Of a stretch of 32,815 nt of DNA, positions 1,724 to 11,285 are shown in pieces. Source of the stretch: Candidatus Hydrogenedens sp. (GTDB lineage: Bacteria; Hydrogenedentota; Hydrogenedentia; Hydrogenedentales; CAITNO01). Each line of letters opens with the position of its first letter. Position 1 is the stretch's first letter. The position numbers and the translations under genes were made by a program. The stretch spans positions 144,425 through 177,239 of the forward strand of contig JAAYJV010000048.1 in assembly GCA_012522755.1 (NCBI GenBank), given 5' to 3'. The notes beneath the pieces were generated by a model. The model did no database searches. It was not told where the DNA came from and worked only from the letters and a program-made list of their open reading frames with translations.

Positions 1724-3847
1724 CTACTTGGTCAGGACTTTATCGTTCAGAATAGGATTGTACCAGGGCTCAAAGGTGCCTCCTGTGGAGATGTGTCCCA
1801 CGATTTCTTCCGGTGACTCATCCATATCCACAGCATTGCCCTCGCTGTCTACAGGCTCGCCGTCTTCGTCAACGGCCACTATTCCTGTAGGCGTTGTCCC
1901 TTCTCCGTCCTCGTCATAAGGGCGGCTTGCAATGATTTCGCCCAGGGGGATCACTTCTCCCCGGGCATTTTTTATCTCTCCATCTGAACGGAAAGTAAAG
2001 GGGACATGCCCTTCTTCAGAGCCGAAAACATCTTTGCCCAGATTGAAGCTCTGATCCAGAACGATTTGGCGGTAGAGCTGCAGATTTTTCTTCATTGTGT
2101 CTTCTGAAGGGTAGAGGATTGTTCCTTTGATAAACAGTTCATCACTGTCTTCTCCGGCATCGAGATAGGCTTTTTCGTCCACAAAGGCGCGCATGAGCTT
2201 CTGTCGCTCTTCCAGATGAAGTTTGCGTTCTTCCCTGGGCATCTGTGAAAGCAGACTGTCATCCAAAACAGCGTCAACACCTTTTGCAAGCGCCAGTTTC
2301 TCTCCTTGCTTTTCCCCGAAGGCTCTCAAAGTCTCTGCGATTTCCGCCGGCATGACCCCGAAGAGGTCAGCTCCAACCACGACTTTGTAGAAGAAGCCCA
2401 TTTCACCCAGACCCTTTTCATATTCATAATCTCGAAGAGTGCTGCGTCCGGGTGTGTCCGATTTATAGGCGCCATAATCCATTTCGCGCCAGCCCGGTGC
2501 TCCGGGAAGCTTTCTCGGGAAAGACCACACGCTGTCCACCGTATTTCCTGTCATGCCATGGCAGCCCAGACATTGCATGAGTTCTTCTGTTGTCTGAGTT
2601 CTCAACTCACCCTGTCGATTTTCAATATATCCTGCCAGAATCCAACCCATATTGTTGTCTATCCAGCCCTGACCTTCATGGCCGAGAACATAGTCATCGG
2701 GATGGGCATCTTCCTCCAGTTCTTCCCATTCAACGGACTTCCATTTATACATATAACGGATCTCTTTGACCCGCTTGGATCGGGTTCCCGGAAATTCATA
2801 ATCAGGCCCCTGCTGGTTGGCGACGCCATCGAGATTTTCACCCACTTCGCCATCGGCCTTCAGATCCACATAATGGAGAGGATGGGCGAACTCTGTACCT
2901 ACGGGAAACAAGCCTTTGTCCACAGAGATGTCATAGGCATCGCCCAGATAAGCTTTTTCTCTCAGCGGCTGGTTCTTGATATTTCTTTCCAGAATATCCA
3001 GATTGCGCTTGTACAACTCCAGATCAACAATTCCCGCATCAGTACGGAAAATTCCGGGCAGACGTATATAAATACCGCTCACGCTCCCCGTCAAGGGCGT
3101 GAAGATGCCATAAGGGAAAAAGTTGACGGCACGCCAGCCCGTATAATTTGCACGCTCATCCCGGACAAATCCATCAGCATCAATATATCCGTGGCTGTTG
3201 CCATCTGTGGGATCCGGCTGGACTTCCGGGAAAAGGTGGGCCGGATTCAGAGCGGGGAAGAGGAGGAAATCGCCGGCATCGGGAAGGACCCACTGCTTTT
3301 CATTTCCCGGACGGACACGATCATACAGGACTTTCCAGTTGTCCTGGCGCATATAACTCAGATCTTCAGGATCAGGAAGTGCAATACCTTCTTTTTCCAG
3401 ACGGGCCGTGATTTCCTGCGGATAAATGGTATTGCGCCAGAGCACTTTGTTCAGATCGGGACTGGGGAAACTGTATAGAACCTGATCATCAGCGATGGGA
3501 TAGTTATTACCGTGTTTTTCCCGGCTCAGATAATCGCTGTGACAGAAAAGACAGGCATTCTGGGTGCCGTAGCCTGTTTCAATCCAGCATTGCGCAGGAA
3601 TATTCGGCTCTTCATTATAGGAGGGCTTGTACGGAGCGCCACTCCTTGCCTTAAAATTTCGGGGAGTCTCGCCCTTATGAAAACTTTCGCAGGCAATCTC
3701 TTCAGGTTCCAGGCCCGTTGTTGCAAGTGCGTCCAGTGCCGAAGGGGCTTCCATCTCACTGTCATCGCCTGGAAGCCCCGAAACGAAGTTGGATAAGAGG
3801 CTCAAGGTTACCAACAGAAAAAAGAGGTATGCAAATTTGTTTTTCAT
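1724..3847 (-). CDS. large exported dihaem c-type cytochrome, uncharacterised
   Basis: A 707-residue protein. The start at 3847 is chosen because a signal peptide follows directly (MKNKFAYLFFLLVTLSLL) and CAGGAGT precedes it by 9 bases; an upstream in-frame start at 4018 would place 57 odd residues before the signal. Two CxxCH haem-attachment motifs are visible: CLFCH at residues 99-103 and CLGCH at 426-430. The protein therefore probably works in the periplasm or at the cell surface in electron transfer. The spacer between haem sites is over 300 residues and has no domain I can name. The C-terminal 90 residues include an acidic Gly/Asp/Glu linker (VDEDGEPVDSEGNAVDMDE). No partner oxidoreductase or other cytochrome is adjacent. 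Electron donor and acceptor cannot be inferred. Confidence 0.8.
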   Translation of the reverse strand: MKNKFAYLFFLLVTLSLLSNFVSGLPGDDSEMEAPSALDALATTGLEPEEIACESFHKGETPRNFKARSGAPYKPSYNEEPNIPAQCWIETGYGTQNACLFCHSDYLSREKHGNNYPIADDQVLYSFPSPDLNKVLWRNTIYPQEITARLEKEGIALPDPEDLSYMRQDNWKVLYDRVRPGNEKQWVLPDAGDFLLFPALNPAHLFPEVQPDPTDGNSHGYIDADGFVRDERANYTGWRAVNFFPYGIFTPLTGSVSGIYIRLPGIFRTDAGIVDLELYKRNLDILERNIKNQPLREKAYLGDAYDISVDKGLFPVGTEFAHPLHYVDLKADGEVGENLDGVANQQGPDYEFPGTRSKRVKEIRYMYKWKSVEWEELEEDAHPDDYVLGHEGQGWIDNNMGWILAGYIENRQGELRTQTTEELMQCLGCHGMTGNTVDSVWSFPRKLPGAPGWREMDYGAYKSDTPGRSTLRDYEYEKGLGEMGFFYKVVVGADLFGVMPAEIAETLRAFGEKQGEKLALAKGVDAVLDDSLLSQMPREERKLHLEERQKLMRAFVDEKAYLDAGEDSDELFIKGTILYPSEDTMKKNLQLYRQIVLDQSFNLGKDVFGSEEGHVPFTFRSDGEIKNARGEVIPLGEIIASRPYDEDGEGTTPTGIVAVDEDGEPVDSEGNAVDMDESPEEIVGHISTGGTFEPWYNPILNDKVLTK

Positions 3848-4056
3848 GATATAACTCCTGATTAAGTGAAGAGGATGAATAGGCCGAAAATAATCAGCGT
3901 CATGCCTGTTATATCCCTCTGATGCGACAGTTACGAGTATAAAATAACCATACCACAGCTTTATTACAGGGTACAAGGATTGTTTGCAGCGTGATTGGAT
4001 TCCAGGTTTTTTCGCCACAGAGGTACCGGGAAATGGGATGATGTTTTAATCAGGTC

Positions 4057-4278: not shown

Positions 4279-4363
4279 GAAGCGCAGGCATGTCTTGGGA
4301 TATAAAAGAAACTCCGGGGAGACATAAGCTTTTTCCTCTCATTCCTTTCGCGGCGTTTTATGC

Positions 4364-4419
4364 TTTTCGCGGTTAAAAAGAAAAAACTTCCTTTGGTTGC
4401 GGCTGTGCTGCGCTGTGAA
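4364..4419 (+). repeat. dispersed repeat family A, short copy 2
   Basis: Contains CGCGGTTAAAAAGAAAA, then TTGCGGCTGTGCTGCGCTG. This is the same block order as the copies at 18850-18905 and 19390-19440. It lies opposite in orientation to copy 1, so the two flank the tandem arrays as an inverted pair. Confidence 0.65.
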
Positions 4420-4488
4420 TGTTATAATCTTTGTATCTGTTCCTACCGACAATTCACCGTCCAGCCCGGACAGCAAAGGAAGAGTCCC

Positions 4489-5979
4489 ATGCTTACGCGT
4501 CTGACCATTCTTCTTACCACCCTTTGTTTCCTGATCCTGTCCGCCTGCCATCACGGAGCGCCTCCCGTGGCTGAGAGTGGCAATCCACTGGCGGGCTTGA
4601 GCCTTCTTCGAGAGGGAAGCAGTCAACGCGCTTCTTCCTGTGATCCTGACTGGGAGGGGAGTAATGCCGATGCCAGATATATTCCCCCGGGAGACTGTCT
4701 GGTCATCGCTGATCTGAAAGGGCCGGGCATCATCCAGCATTTCTGGAATACCGTCGCCGCCTCCGACAGAGGCTATTCACGTCTTCTCCTTCTTCGCATG
4801 TACTGGGATGATGAAGAAGCGCCTTCCGTGGAAGTGCCTCTGGGCGATTTCTTTGCCTTGGGTCACGGCGTGGATCAGACTGTGGATTCCATTCCCGTGA
4901 GCGTGTCTTCCGGAGGTCGTGCAAGAAACTGTTATTGGCCCATGCCTTTCCGGAAATCAGCACGGATAACAGTGACCAATGAGGGCCGCGGACCCGTTCA
5001 GGCCTTTTATTATTACGTGGACTGGTTACAAGTGAAAAAGCTTCCCCGGGATACAGCTTATTTCCATGCTTCCTACAGACAGGAGCATCCGGCTCTTTCC
5101 GGGAAGCGTTATCTCATCGCCGATATAAAAGGTCGTGGCCATTATGTGGGTACTGTTTTGAATGTGCGGCAACATCTTCCCAACTGGTGGGGGGAAGGGG
5201 ATGATTTCTGGTTTATTGATGGCGAGGCAACACCTCGCCTGAGAGGAACGGGCACGGAAGATTATTTTTGTGATGCCTGGGGATTGCGTGAGTTTTCGGC
5301 ACCCTGGTTCGGTGCCCCACTCATGGAAGGCTTCGGCCCTCTGGATCGCACCACCTGCTACAGATGGCATGTCCCTGATCCTGTGCTTTTCAACAAGTCG
5401 CTCCGCCTGGAAATAGAACATATGGGAGTGACCTATAACGAGGAGGGGGACATACGCTCCGGCTTTGAAGAAAGAGCCGATGATTTTTCTTCCGTAGCAT
5501 TCTGGTATCAGACAGAACCGCACAAAGTCTATGAGCCTCTTCCTCCCGGCGAAGAACGCCTGTACGGCGGCTGGGATAAACTTGTCGAGGCTGAAACACT
5601 CATCGAAAACTGCACTGCGTCTCAGGGCAATCTTGAAATTCAAAGCGATGTAGGCTATGGAGGTGGCCAGATCTTCTGGACTCCTCTTGAAAAAAACTGT
5701 GTTCTGGAAATGGAAGTGGAGATCACGGAAGCGGATGCGAAAGAGCTGGTTCTTTTTCTGACCCGCTCTCATGATTACGGCATTTTCCAAGTCTTTCTGG
5801 ATGACAGAGCTTTGGGTGCAGCGGTGGATCTTTTCAGCCAGGGCCTGAATATCCGGGAGTACCGTTTTCCCTTATCCGGTCCGGCTCCGGGCAAACATCT
5901 CCTTCGATTTGAAAATAAAGGCAAAGCTCGGGACAGTGGCGGTTATTTCTTCGGCCTGGATGCTTTTATGATCTTTTGA
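4489..5979 (+). CDS. DUF2961 / GH172-family lipoprotein
   Basis: A 496-residue predicted lipoprotein. The ATG at 4489 is chosen because AAAGGAAGAG precedes it and a lipobox signal follows (hydrophobic stretch, then LSAC). Residues about 30-330 match DUF2961: GPGIIQHFWNTV, YWDDEEAPSVEVPLGDFF, YWPMPFRKSARITVTNEG, then FIDGEATPRLRGTGTEDYF. DUF2961 is glycoside hydrolase family 172, known to act on fructofuranosyl or arabinofuranosyl linkages with glutamates as catalysts; Glu246 (DGE) and Glu257 (GTGTEDYF) are candidates here. The C-terminal 130 residues look like a beta-sandwich, perhaps for binding sugar. It converges on two large secreted TIM-barrel proteins, suggesting a shared glycan target. 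Actual specificity is unknown. Confidence 0.8.
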   Translation: MLTRLTILLTTLCFLILSACHHGAPPVAESGNPLAGLSLLREGSSQRASSCDPDWEGSNADARYIPPGDCLVIADLKGPGIIQHFWNTVAASDRGYSRLLLLRMYWDDEEAPSVEVPLGDFFALGHGVDQTVDSIPVSVSSGGRARNCYWPMPFRKSARITVTNEGRGPVQAFYYYVDWLQVKKLPRDTAYFHASYRQEHPALSGKRYLIADIKGRGHYVGTVLNVRQHLPNWWGEGDDFWFIDGEATPRLRGTGTEDYFCDAWGLREFSAPWFGAPLMEGFGPLDRTTCYRWHVPDPVLFNKSLRLEIEHMGVTYNEEGDIRSGFEERADDFSSVAFWYQTEPHKVYEPLPPGEERLYGGWDKLVEAETLIENCTASQGNLEIQSDVGYGGGQIFWTPLEKNCVLEMEVEITEADAKELVLFLTRSHDYGIFQVFLDDRALGAAVDLFSQGLNIREYRFPLSGPAPGKHLLRFENKGKARDSGGYFFGLDAFMIF

Positions 5980-6001: not shown

Positions 6002-8845
6002 TTATTCCTGAAGAGGCGCTCCTTCGCTGAGCACGGTGACCCTGGCCCGGGGAGGCCGCATTTCTTTGTTTGTGGGCATGCTGATTTGAAGAATATTTTC
6101 GCCTCTTTTGAGTCGGGCCGATCCTTTCACGGCAATTTCAGCCTGGATATTTCCTTTTGCGTCATAGAGTACAGCCCCTCTTTCGCTGTCATATTCCAGA
6201 CAACAGCCTGTGGGAATCTCAACAGGAAAGAAGAGAGGCTTGCCATTGACCAGAAGGGTCGGGCCTTGGATAACTGATTCTTCCAGAGGCAGCGCTTTCA
6301 CAGGCCCGATGGCACAGCGAACTTCCTGATCGGGAGGCAGATTGTTGAACCATACGGAAAAGGATTGCAGAGCACTGAAATCCACATGTTCCCGGTACAT
6401 GCTGTAGTGATTGCCATAGGGCCACAGCCATTGCGGGATGGTACCTCCTTCAAATTCCACAAGAGAAATATATCGCCAGCCTGTGAAATCCAGTTTCACA
6501 TAATGATCGCCGATGCCGCCGGCCGTTGTGTGGGCGGCACTCAGTGTTTGCAGATTCAAAAGTGCGCCGCTCCCATCCCCCCGGACCCAGGCACCCAGAG
6601 CAGCCCGGTCTTTGGCATTTTTCGAGGGCGTGAAACTGGTGCCGAACTGCGCCCAGGAACCTTCTTTTTTCGGCCGTGAACTTTGCAATGTGAATAGGGC
6701 CATGGACTTCTGATCTTTGAATGAACTCTCTTCCATGGAAAAGGTAGCGGTGATGCCTTCATTGGATCGTTGCAGATCCAGCGTGTTTTCATCGGAAAAA
6801 TCATTCAAGACCACGGCCTCTTCAGAATCATAGGGAGCAGGGGACATGAGTGTTTCCATACGTAAACGGATCTCCTGCTCATCAAAGGCATTTTCAACAG
6901 TCCATTGCAGGCTCTTGGGGTTGGCACCATCAGCCACATGTTTGTGCGTGGCCGCTTCACAAAACTGAAAGGCTTTTTCTTCCGTCTGTTTCAGCACATG
7001 TTCCGCACCGGGACGACGGAGCCGTTCTTTGATACTTTCCGGAACCACGCCTGAGAGCCGTAGATTTTCATAAGCCTGGAAGAGGGGGATGAAGCGTTGA
7101 AAAGCGGGCATCTCCGGCAGGTTCTTCGGGTTGACGCCCATGAGTGACAGGCTGAAATCATTGCCCAGAGCCTTGCACAGCAGATATTCAATATCCTCGT
7201 ACCAGGTGGGTTCCGACCAGGCGGAAGCGACGCCTGTCTGCCAGTTTTTCACAGCCCACCAGCCCAGATTCATGGGCAGATACATCTTGCTCCCTTGCTG
7301 GTTAATTTCGCAATGAAGATCGATGAACTCTTTGTGACTTCTTGCCGGATGATCCCAGGCGCCCATGCGTGCGCGGACAAACCACAGATGATGGGACATG
7401 GTGCTCATCTCAAAGAGAGCGGGCCGCTCCAGACGGCTGGCTATTTCAAAAGCGAATTTGGGCGCATAGTGCCAGGCATGTTCACCTCCGGCCAGAATGT
7501 CCGAACCATCGAGAGCATCCAGATAAATCATGTCGAAACCGCACTCATTGAAGGTGTCAGCAGTGACAGCGGCAATCTCCGAGAACAGGGTGGAATCTCC
7601 ATCAGGACAATAGAGCCCGAAACATTCTTTCAGTTTGTGGACGGGTGTCCCGGCCGCATGAGCGCTGATCGCTGTGCCCAGGGCACCGCGGGTGCATCCC
7701 GTAAAAGTGAAGGGCGCCTCCGAACTAACACCGGTGAATATGATCAGTTCATCGTCTATTTGCAGGGTCACGCTGTTGCGTGCGAAAAAGCCTGTATCGA
7801 TCTTTACCTCAGCTGTAGATTCCTCAACAACGACTTCACTCTCTTCAGCGGAAAGATCCACAGCCAATGTGTAGGTGGCGTCTTTACCCAGACGGGGATC
7901 AGGCACAGGGGTGATGTACGGCGAGTTTTTCGCAATGAAGAAAGCATAGGTATGCAGGCCTGCGGAGATCCCGGCCTCATGGAGCCGGTCAATGACAGCC
8001 TTCACACTCTCCCGACCTTTGGGGAAAAGTGTTTCATTGGGGGTCAGGTCTCCAAAGCGCAGAGAAGTGCCCGTATGAAAATCGATCTGTTTGAAGCCCA
8101 GATCCTGTGTCAGCTGAATCCAGTCATCAACGTTTTCTTCAGTGAGATTGCCGAAATCAAAGAGATAAGAGCCCCGGTTCGAAGTGGCATCAAGTGCCCA
8201 GGGACCGCCCAGAGGAGGAACAGAGGCATCTATGTGACGGGGCAGCTCGGGAGAATTCAATACGACCTGCTGCATGGCCTGCCGAAGGGACTCCCGTGGG
8301 CAGACAATGACATTCAGGCGGGCACCGGCAAGACCGAAGCGACTGACAGCGGAACCCTGAATACGGGAGACGGGGGAGGGGATCCCCGGAACACGGGTCT
8401 GCAAGTTTCCAGCGAGCATGGACGCAACGGTCTTTTCAGTCCCATCACCCTTCAATTTCAAAGGAAGATCCAGAAGCTCCACAGTCTCCACGCGCTCATC
8501 ATTGACAGACAACAGCGACAGGCTGAAGTAGTCGGCGGCAATTTCCACTTGAAACTGCGCTTCTATATCCGTATCACCATACCGGACAGTATAGCCTTGT
8601 TCAGCAGGGAGCACCGCTGTGGCCGGCAGCGTTTTTCCTTCCAGAATAACAGAAGAGAAGGCTTGTTGCTCCTCCAATGCGAGCAACTCCTCCTCTTCAT
8701 CTTTGTCCCAGAGAGACAGGGCTTTCCCTTCTTTTCCGATCACCCAGCGCACATGATCTGTATCCACAGTGAAAACAGTCCCTTCCGTGTCTACAGCCGC
8801 ACCGGCATTCACAGCCACAACGAGCGAAAGCAAAAGAGCGTACAT
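6002..8845 (-). CDS. large secreted TIM-barrel glycosidase-like protein
   Basis: A 947-residue exported protein with a short signal peptide (ending near AVNAGA). AGGAGT lies 7 bases before its ATG. An N-terminal beta-sandwich (about residues 20-230) precedes a TIM-barrel region (about 230-620) with QIDFHTGTSLRFG and DMIYLDALDGSD; Asp443 and Asp446 are candidate catalytic residues by position, as in alpha-galactosidase-like clans. The C-terminal 300 residues look like carbohydrate-binding sandwiches. Residues about 340-400 interrupt the barrel with a module (LQIDDELIIFTGV, then CTRGALGTAISAHAAGT) resembling short modules common in phage virion proteins. It is the second gene of a minus-strand operon, 29 bases behind the DUF6259-like gene. 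I cannot name a family with confidence. A polysaccharide substrate is inference from context. Confidence 0.75.
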   Translation of the reverse strand: MYALLLSLVVAVNAGAAVDTEGTVFTVDTDHVRWVIGKEGKALSLWDKDEEEELLALEEQQAFSSVILEGKTLPATAVLPAEQGYTVRYGDTDIEAQFQVEIAADYFSLSLLSVNDERVETVELLDLPLKLKGDGTEKTVASMLAGNLQTRVPGIPSPVSRIQGSAVSRFGLAGARLNVIVCPRESLRQAMQQVVLNSPELPRHIDASVPPLGGPWALDATSNRGSYLFDFGNLTEENVDDWIQLTQDLGFKQIDFHTGTSLRFGDLTPNETLFPKGRESVKAVIDRLHEAGISAGLHTYAFFIAKNSPYITPVPDPRLGKDATYTLAVDLSAEESEVVVEESTAEVKIDTGFFARNSVTLQIDDELIIFTGVSSEAPFTFTGCTRGALGTAISAHAAGTPVHKLKECFGLYCPDGDSTLFSEIAAVTADTFNECGFDMIYLDALDGSDILAGGEHAWHYAPKFAFEIASRLERPALFEMSTMSHHLWFVRARMGAWDHPARSHKEFIDLHCEINQQGSKMYLPMNLGWWAVKNWQTGVASAWSEPTWYEDIEYLLCKALGNDFSLSLMGVNPKNLPEMPAFQRFIPLFQAYENLRLSGVVPESIKERLRRPGAEHVLKQTEEKAFQFCEAATHKHVADGANPKSLQWTVENAFDEQEIRLRMETLMSPAPYDSEEAVVLNDFSDENTLDLQRSNEGITATFSMEESSFKDQKSMALFTLQSSRPKKEGSWAQFGTSFTPSKNAKDRAALGAWVRGDGSGALLNLQTLSAAHTTAGGIGDHYVKLDFTGWRYISLVEFEGGTIPQWLWPYGNHYSMYREHVDFSALQSFSVWFNNLPPDQEVRCAIGPVKALPLEESVIQGPTLLVNGKPLFFPVEIPTGCCLEYDSERGAVLYDAKGNIQAEIAVKGSARLKRGENILQISMPTNKEMRPPRARVTVLSEGAPLQE

Positions 8846-8874
8846 GGGATCAACTCCTGTCTTTGAAATGAATA

Positions 8875-11142
8875 TCAGTTGTGTTGCTCTGAAATAAATT
8901 CAACCAGGCATAAGGAATTGCCCGGCAGATTGAGATCTTGAAGAATCCGGCCCTCTTTCCAATGGCCGAGGGGCCGGGTTTTGTCCGCCAGAATTTGAAT
9001 GATCTTTCCGGAAGTGCCCAGAGGATAGTCTTTGTCATTCAAAGCAAGAGAGACGCTTCTGTCCTCTTCCGTGATGTTGACCAGGGCCACAGCCATATCA
9101 CCATCCGAAGCCAGCCAGGTGGCGGCCAGCACAGCAGGAACTTCACGGCTGTATTCCTGTACGGCATCATGCTGACCCGCATAGATGGACAGGCGTGACG
9201 TGGGTATTTCCACCATCTCCGGAGCGATTGCCGGAGGCCGGAGCATGACACCATCTCTCAGATATTTCAAAGAACGCTGACGGGTATGGGCCAGCTCCAT
9301 CAGAAAATCCATCTCTGCTTTTCGTTCTTCCAGATGCTCCGGCTGAAAATTGGCTATACAGGGGATCTGTCCCCAAACGAAAGAGCGTCCCTGTTCCAAA
9401 CGGAATTGGGTGGAAAACTTCTGATCCAGAAGGGCGAGAGGATTATCCGGCGCACTTTTCTCAGGCCATAAGGAATCATAAGGCGGTCGTGTCAGGGAAC
9501 TGTAGTTTCCGAAAAAGCGCGCGCAATCATGATATACCGCATGGAAGAAGGGGATGGGTTCCCATTGTCCCGGTGTGGCATAGCGTTCCATACTTACCTG
9601 AAGGCTCAGCATGAGATCCAGGTGGGGCAGCCAGGCCTCGCCACAACCTTCTCCGGCCAGAGCCGGAGCTTTTACCGGGAGACAGCGTTGCCGGATATCA
9701 GAAGCCAGCGCTTGAAAGCCCTGCATCCACCACGGCCCGCCCCCCGGAGGATGGTTGTGGGTGGGATCGTAACAGGCCAGACTCGAACAGGCCTGGTCCA
9801 TATAGATGCCGTCCACACCCAGATCGAGCAATGCCTCCACGGCAATATCAGCATAAGTGTTGCGCCAGAAAGGAGTGCTCATGCACATGGAAGCGCAAGG
9901 CGATTGAGTGAAAGTATTGTAAATCTCCCGTCGGATCGTACCATCGGGACCTTTCACGGCAAAGCGCTGGGCGTCTTTTTCCTCCCAGCTTTTTGTCTCC
10001 ATGCCCCAGAGCCGCTGGTTCATATATACAATGGCATGAATACCTGTCTCCTGGGCTTCCTGCAGGGATTTCTTGAAAGTTTCCGTGCCTTCCCGTGGCG
10101 GCAGATATTCAGGAAAGCCCGCATCATAGGCGCAGCCGTGCCACCAATGCCAGAAGAGACTGACAGGCAAGCCCAGCGCATCCTGCAAAGCCATGGCGGG
10201 AGGGAGGACACCCGGCGAAACATCACGGTTCCAGATCCAGAGCCCCGTATCTTCCACCCAGTCAGGCAGCAGTTCTTTGCGTACTCGGCTTTCCGCCACA
10301 TAGGGAAGGGCATCCCGTTCTTCGCGATAGAGCAGGGCCCCATCATACCAGTCGCCTGTAAATGCGGAGAGATAGACCGGGCCGGCCAGCTGAAATTCCG
10401 TGGAATCGGAAGAAGCCGGGTGCACAATTTCCAGGCCCAGCCCATCCGAGGACGTACCGAAAACAGCGAATTCACGGCGTATGGCTGTGCTGTCTCGCGT
10501 ATGGAGCAGAAGCCCGCCATCATCGCCGTAAAAGCTCATACACTGTAAAGACAACAAACCGGGATACTCCCAACTGCGACGAAGTGGGGGAGCCTCCGCT
10601 GGATTTAAAAAATTTCGGGCTGTGGAGGTCTTTTCACCCATCCAGAAAGGAACGGCAAGACATTCCTTCTCCTGCTCGGCCAGGGCGCCGATTGAAGGAA
10701 AAATCACCTGACGCAGAGAAAGAGGCTCCGCCGCCTTCACAGAAATATGCCAGACACTTTCGGCTTTCTCTTCGGCCAGTGATACAGTAACAAGCACTTC
10801 CAGGCCTGACCGTTCCGGCGTCTCAAAATCCTTCCATAAAAGCTGAAGTTCTTTATCCGTTTTTCCGGACAGACAGGAAAATTGTTGCCCTTCCTCAGGT
10901 CGCAGAATGGAACCGTCTGTAAAGACCAGTTGCCAAAGAGCCTCTCCGGAATCTTCCGAAAGGAGATTGAAACTCTCTTCCCCCTGTCTGATGCCGACAA
11001 GACAGCCCGTCATTTCGTCAAAAGCCAGTGTCATGGCTTCATTGGAAATTTCGAGGGAAACCCCTTCCCAATGGATCCCCAAAAAAACAAATGCGGCGAC
11101 AATGCACAAGAGACGACGCTTTTTTTGAATCATGATAAACAC
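8875..11142 (-). CDS. secreted DUF6259-like TIM-barrel protein
   Basis: A 755-residue protein. GTG at 11142 is the likely start because AAGGAG lies 8 bases upstream (11151-11156); the ATG at 11133 is too far from that site and the ATG at 11166 has no room for one. A hydrophobic export signal follows (LLCIVAAFVFLGI). An N-terminal beta-sandwich (about 30-270) leads into a TIM barrel with LFWHWWHGCAYDAGFP, AIVYMNQRLWG and GVDGIYMDQ; Asp449 is a candidate catalytic residue. A small C-terminal sandwich ends the protein. The layout matches DUF6259-type glycosidase-like proteins of Lentisphaerota and related groups, related in fold to alpha-galactosidases. It is the first gene of the operon. Substrate is unknown. 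Confidence 0.75.
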   Translation of the reverse strand: MFIMIQKKRRLLCIVAAFVFLGIHWEGVSLEISNEAMTLAFDEMTGCLVGIRQGEESFNLLSEDSGEALWQLVFTDGSILRPEEGQQFSCLSGKTDKELQLLWKDFETPERSGLEVLVTVSLAEEKAESVWHISVKAAEPLSLRQVIFPSIGALAEQEKECLAVPFWMGEKTSTARNFLNPAEAPPLRRSWEYPGLLSLQCMSFYGDDGGLLLHTRDSTAIRREFAVFGTSSDGLGLEIVHPASSDSTEFQLAGPVYLSAFTGDWYDGALLYREERDALPYVAESRVRKELLPDWVEDTGLWIWNRDVSPGVLPPAMALQDALGLPVSLFWHWWHGCAYDAGFPEYLPPREGTETFKKSLQEAQETGIHAIVYMNQRLWGMETKSWEEKDAQRFAVKGPDGTIRREIYNTFTQSPCASMCMSTPFWRNTYADIAVEALLDLGVDGIYMDQACSSLACYDPTHNHPPGGGPWWMQGFQALASDIRQRCLPVKAPALAGEGCGEAWLPHLDLMLSLQVSMERYATPGQWEPIPFFHAVYHDCARFFGNYSSLTRPPYDSLWPEKSAPDNPLALLDQKFSTQFRLEQGRSFVWGQIPCIANFQPEHLEERKAEMDFLMELAHTRQRSLKYLRDGVMLRPPAIAPEMVEIPTSRLSIYAGQHDAVQEYSREVPAVLAATWLASDGDMAVALVNITEEDRSVSLALNDKDYPLGTSGKIIQILADKTRPLGHWKEGRILQDLNLPGNSLCLVEFISEQHN

Positions 11143-11285
11143 GATGCTTTCTCCTTGAAGGCTCATTCCTGAATACAGTCATTATGTAGGAAGAGGCCAT
11201 GAGGTTCAAGATCTTGCTGGTCTTCTGTGCTGTCACCGGGATCTCCGGCGAATTAGCTGCAGTTTGCCCGACGGAACGCATCATG

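Follow-up and report, generated by a model that had tools for sequence, protein, structure and literature searches.

What does a short segment resembling the virion proteins of tailed phages do inside a putatively secreted bacterial enzyme? This question is raised by a glycosidase-like protein of 947 amino acids (aa), encoded in a 32,815-nucleotide stretch of Candidatus Hydrogenedens sp. (Hydrogenedentota; assembly GCA_012522755.1, contig JAAYJV010000048.1, positions 144,425 to 177,239), referred to below as the window. A first-pass annotation had described a virion-like module in this protein, lying between strands of a triosephosphate isomerase (TIM) barrel, and had suggested a substrate-binding or oligomerization insert that might vary among homologues. 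Our computational analysis supports the phage homology of the module, its predicted autonomous fold, its predicted position, and its presence across the family as far as the family was seen. We consider it fairly probable that the module is an autonomous phage-hub-type barrel and, as a fixed insert between beta3 and alpha3 of a secreted, GH36/GH101-like alpha-glycosidase, acts as a phage-type domain B.

Sequence relationship of the module to phage tail proteins

The annotated strings LQIDDELIIFTGV and CTRGALGTAISAHAAGT were confirmed in the translation within residues 340 to 401, with DMIYLDALDGSD after them. When the whole 947-aa protein was compared with PHROGs, two families were returned up to an E value of 10, namely phrog_1101 ("tail protein"; E = 8.5e-6), matching residues 324 to 402, and a second one elsewhere in the protein at E = 0.4. 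The isolated module matched phrog_1101 at E = 2.8e-7 (87 aa) and 1.3e-7 (93 aa). Since the whole-protein match was limited to residues 324 to 402 and the isolated segment reached E = 2.8e-7, the resemblance to phage proteins is, at the level of sequence, real and restricted to the module segment. Moreover, all 40 modules of alignment A2, from which the most divergent rows (L062 to L065) were left out, matched phrog_1101 at E ≤ 0.1, in the region 556 to 628 of that family. Alignment of the family profile with a phage profile in hhalign gave a probability of 99.3 (E = 2.3e-20, 76 columns), a flattering figure, because the phage rows had been fetched with a family-derived pattern.

The same phrog_1101 matched gp53 of phage JBD30 (E = 0) and also the hub of phage Chi. 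A mixed module profile run over the whole JBD30 record gave a single match, in gp53 (residues 496 to 553, E = 4.3e-4), and over the whole Chi record again a single match (residues 939 to 983, E = 0.0019), which is a second copy in that protein. The same sequence module occurs in virion proteins of cyanophages, pelagiphages, and roseophages; most of the listed matches are weak singly, and the proteins, where annotated, are mostly structural or hypothetical. The C terminus of the RcGTA "megatron" was rejected as the closest relative, given that its Pfam scores remained below the cutoff (PF23666, Rcc01698_C: 18.3 bits for the window's module against a curated cutoff of 27 bits; 23 of the 40 modules matched at E ≤ 1, best 5e-4) and that the hubs of JBD30 and Chi are matched by phrog_1101.

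Predicted fold and structural relatives of the module

The annotated location was upheld, while the limits proved wider than the window positions 7640 to 7860 first given: they were set at residues 317 to 409, i.e., window 7619 to 7897 on the minus strand (Table 1). When residues 315 to 412 were modeled in isolation, a fold was predicted with a predicted local distance difference test (pLDDT) score of 86.5 and a predicted template modeling (pTM) score of 0.77, and its strands corresponded one for one, shifted by 314, to those of the whole-protein model. The module is thus predicted to be an autonomously folding small beta-barrel. Foldseek, which the first-pass annotation had proposed together with this modeling, yielded 62 matches at E ≤ 0.001 in the viral library BFVD, and none at that threshold in the PDB (best 7.8e-3).

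In VIA comparisons, where the best Z score is typically 7 to 8 for models without a clear match, the isolated module matched the JBD30 baseplate (8rk3_b) with Z = 10.0, 3.0 Å, and 86 aligned residues, followed by the VP1 capsid (9in6_M, Z = 9.7), the GP4 portal-tail protein (8jov_1, Z = 9.2), and the Chi tail tip (8vjh_A, Z = 9.2). These four phage proteins were the PDB entries with Z ≥ 8, and the next row had Z = 7.0; no amylase was among the 50 VIA entries listed, which does not rule out a domain-B fold. The virion-like character of the module was therefore borne out both by sequence (phrog_1101) and by fold (virion proteins at Z of 9.2 to 10.0).

The closest comparison is JBD30 gp53 (8rk3 chain b, residues 443 to 562), which shares with the module both the fold and the E, RG, T, and H positions and scored 10.7 bits with profile A6. 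This segment probably is domain VI of the JBD30 hub. In the hub's published description, domain VI is a small six-stranded beta-barrel that extends out of domain V, contacts domain VII, and stabilizes the baseplate, and domains V and VII are fibronectin-like. There too, the barrel is carried by another domain, as the module is by the TIM barrel, whereas the two differ in that gp53 is a virion protein with fibronectin-like neighbor domains and the carrier of the module is a TIM-barrel enzyme. The Chi tail tip (chi_070; 8vjh chain A, residues 452 to 582) likewise shares the fold and the E, RG, T, and H positions; it differs in being a virion protein with two module-like stretches of weak sequence score (residues 491 to 569, 3.1 bits; residues 939 to 983, 8.6 bits). 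The VP1 and GP4 proteins were compared by fold only.

The JBD30 sequence match (residues 496 to 553) falls inside the structural match (residues 443 to 562), so a line from sequence only and a line from structure only meet in the same hub domain. This agreement bears on the explanation that the likeness of a short, glycine/alanine-rich motif arose by chance or convergence, an explanation to which the weak single-sequence phage comparison would lend some weight (from among 50,697 phage records, tblastn matched 104 at E ≤ 10, the best of them at 3e-4). With sequence statistics and structure pointing to one and the same JBD30 domain, and with 40/40 modules matching phrog_1101, we find it hardly credible.

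Position of the module in the host fold

A whole-protein model built from family rows only had a mean pLDDT of 93.0 and a pTM of 0.90, with the domain order N-terminal beta-sandwich, TIM barrel, CBM11-like domain, and C-terminal beta region. GH101 chains held the top Foldseek ranks for this model (5a59, E = 8.6e-16, template modeling [TM] score about 0.3), with rank six going to the Flavonifractor plautii galactosaminidase, a GH36 enzyme. The best VIA match was that enzyme, FpGalNase (8x1b; Z = 18.0, 439 aligned residues, 5.6 Å), over model residues 25 to 613. The predicted host fold is accordingly of the GH36/GH31/GH101 type, an N-terminal beta-sandwich plus TIM barrel, and we call it GH36/GH101-like. 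Its core resembles that of the GH36 enzyme FpGalNase (8x1b, 9awt) and of GH101 endo-alpha-N-acetylgalactosaminidase, whereas Pfam gave no GH36, GH101, or GH13 (alpha-amylase) match in the 947-aa protein and did not recognize the TIM barrel; CBM_11 (15.8 of 27 bits) and Ribosomal_L24e were the only Pfam matches at E ≤ 1, both below the cutoff. NCBIfam returned no match, and sequence searches of the PDB returned no trustworthy one.

The order of elements in the model is beta3 (residues 294 to 300), module, alpha3 (residues 419 to 435), and beta4 (residues 439 to 443), which confirmed, for the predicted structure, that the module occupies the beta3-alpha3 loop, between TIM-barrel strands and before the DMIYLD strand as annotated. 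It follows the invariant H298 and precedes D443. The active sites of TIM barrels lie on the beta-to-alpha loop side, and the GH13 amylases carry their domain B in the beta3-alpha3 loop, between a histidine on beta3 and the aspartate of beta4. Domain B of the alpha-amylases is thus like the module in its loop position, while the host has no Pfam GH13 match. GH36 and GH101 enzymes are not known to carry this module at the beta3-alpha3 loop. As to catalysis, D443 closes strand beta4 in the model and is invariant in alignment A4 (63/63 rows), and E479 closes beta5 and is found in 63/63 rows of A4; in the 64-row family alignment described below, position 443 is D in 49 rows and a gap in 15, with a shifted FDG or YDG alongside. 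We propose D443 and E479 as the catalytic pair from the alignments and the model. The end of beta4 is where enzymes of the GH36/GH31/GH101 type have their catalytic aspartate, and the end of beta5 is where GH101-type enzymes have the acid/base glutamate.

The predicted position also bears on the annotated idea of an oligomerization insert, in which the barrel would be a subunit interface. The phage relatives work inside trimeric hubs, which speaks for such a role; the module's predicted place at the barrel mouth makes a role at the active site the more economical explanation, and we judge an interface to be highly improbable.

Presence and conservation across the family

Matches to the 947-aa protein were found in 39 of 60 genomes, its own included. 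Among the 69 matched ORFs (open reading frames), six shorter ones were left out, and in the resulting 64 aligned rows of at least 600 aa, two of which are the window's own protein, the module was at the same place in 64/64, including subfamilies at 21 to 28% overall identity. A second set, drawn from the best 80 of 168 loci in genomes that overlap the first set, comprised 81 rows after one of 82 ORFs (<740 aa) had been dropped, and the module was present in 81/81; its contigs belonged to Hydrogenedentota, Planctomycetota, Verrucomicrobia, Lentisphaerae, Armatimonadota, Poribacteria, Omnitrophota, and others. To avoid bias, the query of a further search (A8) consisted only of the barrel after the module. 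In 291 genomes, with at most 11 candidates scored per genome, it gave 77 matches at 76 places, 75 of which had a module match when compared by eye; the sole exception (G051:C38) was a 36-aa frame with three stops, a degraded fragment. On these counts, a variable insert was rejected for the members seen, a possibility that the first-pass annotation had left to an alignment of homologues. That annotation had also named what would speak against an inserted module, and of its two halves, presence in all members was found among the members seen, while the segment is predicted as a small barrel of its own rather than as an integral part of the TIM barrel. Because the module is present in all family rows, it would have been acquired before the family diversified. 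One Planctomycetota contig (L105) holds two family members close together on the same strand, of 953 and 1139 aa, with 45% and 29% identity to the window's protein.

When 27 family rows were compared with 19 phage rows, the columns conserved in both were L327, E366, L367, I368, R386, G387, T391, and H396, and the E, RG, T, and H of the JBD30 and Chi hubs are in register with E366, R386-G387, T391, and H396. Conserved in the family alone were, among others, E342, T351, G352, N357, S358, L405, E407, and G410. Residues about 347 to 355 are gapped in most phage modules, and the stretch 345 to 359 is of the type TGF..RNS in the main subfamily, whereas a second subfamily has DGGY.G.G there and a third has ..NW.

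Core residues that hold the fold, combined with a loop particular to each subfamily, are expected of a domain-B-like wall and are also compatible with a brace. In the latter case, the barrel would be a structural staple that braces the TIM barrel and neighboring domains and takes no direct part at the substrate site, much as the barrel of the phage hub braces that hub. The module residues found in 64/64 rows (E366, R386, T391, and H396) are the phage-shared ones and so would serve the module rather than catalysis, and the JBD30 domain VI is described as contacting domain VII and stabilizing the baseplate. Nevertheless, the barrel is placed between the invariant H298 and D443 in the model, on the side of the beta-to-alpha loops, and the loop 345 to 359 is kept within subfamilies and switches between them, unlike what a plain brace would show; we regard a staple as unlikely, albeit not negligible.

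The same loop is relevant to the annotated substrate-binding role in the form of a carbohydrate-binding insert, i.e., a CBM-like barrel that grips glycan and keeps a polymeric substrate near the active site. F353 and F354, nearly invariant in A4, could stack on a sugar, and the authors who described the JBD30 distal tail protein and the RcGTA hub call domains in them oligosaccharide binding. In addition, the R4C baseplate chain 8gtc_P matches the module over its residues 164 to 251 in VIA. This last match is weak, however, with a Z score of 5.5 on a par with the F1-ATPase barrels (about 5.3); the two phenylalanines are not retained in other subfamilies, and the protein already has a CBM11-like domain. 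Carbohydrate binding by the module is therefore improbable.

Proposed role of the module

The role that we favor is that of a phage-type domain B. The E/R/G/T/H core would keep the barrel rigid, and the loop of residues about 345 to 359, together with the conserved entry and exit residues (P315 and L319; L405, E407, and G410), would hold it over the mouth of the TIM barrel. Beside H298 on beta3, D443 on beta4, and E479 on beta5, the barrel might then form one wall of the substrate site, and this wall would present the subfamily-specific loop to the substrate.

Several observations weigh against this proposal. What the module has in common with phages appears to be residues that hold the fold and tell nothing about catalysis, the nearness of the module to the active site is read from strand order in the predicted model, and the sugar-cleaving activity of the 947-aa protein is itself inferred. 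E479 is kept in 45 of the wider set of 64 rows (Q in 11, G in 5, and Y in 3); since it is replaced in 19/64, the catalytic pair stays a proposal, and the variant subfamilies may be inactive or rely on a different residue. Regarding the phage relationship, A2 lacks the most divergent rows, and one of these proteins, L062, had no PHROG match at E ≤ 0.1 as a whole, its module being found by the A2 profile at E = 6.2e-7. The Chi copy that was matched by structure scores just 3.1 bits by sequence, and Foldseek found no PDB match to the isolated module at its threshold. The alignment behind the isolated model included the 19 phage rows, which could bias it towards a phage-like shape, although its strands agree with those of the family-only full model.

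The module in other bacterial proteins

With the mixed profile, at least 68 of 386 genomes had a match at E = 0.001 (at most 13 candidates scored per genome). A second TIM-barrel-like family, marked by GTYGAERVEDL, carries the module at nine loci (L259, L260, L263 to L265, and L283 to L286), and the four members scanned had no Pfam match at E ≤ 0.1. The module was also found in GHL15 hypothetical glycosyl hydrolases, of which L294 and L307 are above the Pfam cutoff and L304 is below it. It was present in 1 of the 30 loci fetched in a GHL15 survey (37 match rows, some below the cutoff) and is thus optional in GHL15; weak L330 matches in that survey were taken as noise. Molybdopterin oxidoreductases of the twin-arginine translocation (TAT) type contain it within the span of the catalytic domain (protein residues 406 to 485 in L266 and 422 to 497 in L282), and L288 (residues 415 to 494) was assigned to them by likeness. 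Further hosts are an NHL-repeat protein and tail-like proteins. In the fragment L066 (809-1180), the module stands directly before a metalloprotease-like HEAGH (Pfam below the cutoff), and at L301, two pilin-like ORFs have module-like stretches, with an N-terminal methylation motif below the cutoff in the one scanned.

As read by eye from strand patterns, the module apparently follows beta3 in the GTYGAERVEDL family and in GHL15 too. Profiles of the flanks of the host family matched eight family ORFs but no member of the GTYGAERVEDL and GHL15 families, for which the best full-sequence E value was 0.22, although such undetected flank homology among the three host families is not proof of independent origin. 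A module tree built from 58 rows and 93 columns left 26 of its 55 inner branches open. The GTYGAERVEDL, GHL15, and molybdopterin groups each formed one side of a branch, while the three subgroups of the host family were neither united nor separated from the phage rows, so neither a one-time acquisition nor any particular direction of transfer finds support in the tree. We tentatively suggest, as a possibility, that tailed phages and bacteria have exchanged the module as a general plug-in domain. On three or more occasions, bacteria would have placed it in the same loop, beta3-alpha3, of secreted TIM-barrel hydrolases unrelated to one another (the host family, the GTYGAERVEDL family, and GHL15), as a phage-type domain B tuning substrate access, and they would also have placed it in molybdopterin oxidoreductases.

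Gene, surroundings, and significance

The sole pointer to secretion of the 947-aa protein is its signal-peptide-like N terminus, judged by eye from the sequence; the model has a pLDDT below 50 at residues 11 to 20. The CBM11-like domain matched 6r31_A in VIA (Z = 14.7; root mean square deviation, 3.6; 164 aligned) over residues 674 to 857. Another match was 8qpg_TA, a turret protein of Haloferax tailed virus 1 (Z = 15.0; root mean square deviation, 2.4; 144 aligned).

Table 1. Elements of the 947-aa gene and its product, in window coordinates
Feature	Position	Strand	Basis
Glycosidase-like ORF, 947 aa, host of the module	6002..8845	minus	ORF and translation; GH36/GH101-like predicted fold
AGGAG, likely ribosome binding site	8854..8858	minus	8 bases before ATG
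Signal-peptide-like N terminus, residues 1-17	8795..8845	minus	sequence by eye; model helix 2-12
N-terminal beta-sandwich domain, residues 23-183	8297..8779	minus	model strands; spanned by GH36/GH31 structure matches
TIM barrel beta1-beta3, residues 227-300	7946..8167	minus	model
H298, invariant, last strand of beta1-beta3 part	7952-7954	minus	64/64 family rows
Phage-hub-like beta-barrel module, residues 317-409, beta3-alpha3 loop	7619..7897	minus	PHROGs, models, structure matches
Module loop 350-359, kept within subfamilies, differing between them	7769..7798	minus	family versus phage rows
E366, module core	7748..7750	minus	64/64 family rows, 19/19 phage rows
R386-G387, module core	7685..7690	minus	R 64/64, G 63/64 family rows; each 19/19 phage rows
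T391, module core	7673..7675	minus	64/64 family rows, 18/19 phage rows
H396, module core	7658..7660	minus	64/64 family rows, 19/19 phage rows
Remaining TIM barrel from alpha3 on, residues 419-600	7046..7591	minus	model
D443, end of beta4, candidate nucleophile (putative role)	7517..7519	minus	alignments and model
E479, end of beta5, candidate acid/base (putative role)	7409..7411	minus	alignments and model
CBM11-like beta-sandwich, residues 674-859	6269..6826	minus	VIA 6r31_A; Pfam CBM_11 below cutoff

A DUF6259 gene (window 8875 to 11166) shares the strand of the 947-aa gene and lies 29 bases upstream of it, whereas a DUF2961 gene (window 4360 to 5979) is encoded on the opposite strand, beyond the 3' end; both neighbors were found again in 1 of 80 loci (L103; flanks up to 4 kb). 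Profile similarity to the DUF6259 neighbor extended over no more than 19 columns (E = 0.14), located at the beta4 strand. A 764-aa ORF (window 1724 to 4018) had no Pfam match above the cutoff. Sixteen other ORFs of the window were scanned, and no phage Pfam match was found in any of them (4 of the 16 had no match over the cutoff at all), and the organism's genome, 95% complete, contains one copy of the module; this context argues against the module working inside a virion. With that single copy, a recent capture from a resident prophage was likewise unsupported.

Narrow phrase searches of the literature found no paper on this module in bacterial enzymes, which does not imply its absence from print. 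The present results tie a common virion motif to solved hub domains and so give the motif a structure, and they reveal this domain as a stable component of enzymes and further proteins in bacteria. Should structures bear out that the module sits in the beta3-alpha3 loop of all three unrelated TIM-barrel families, it would clearly exemplify how one small domain is repeatedly taken into the same functional site.

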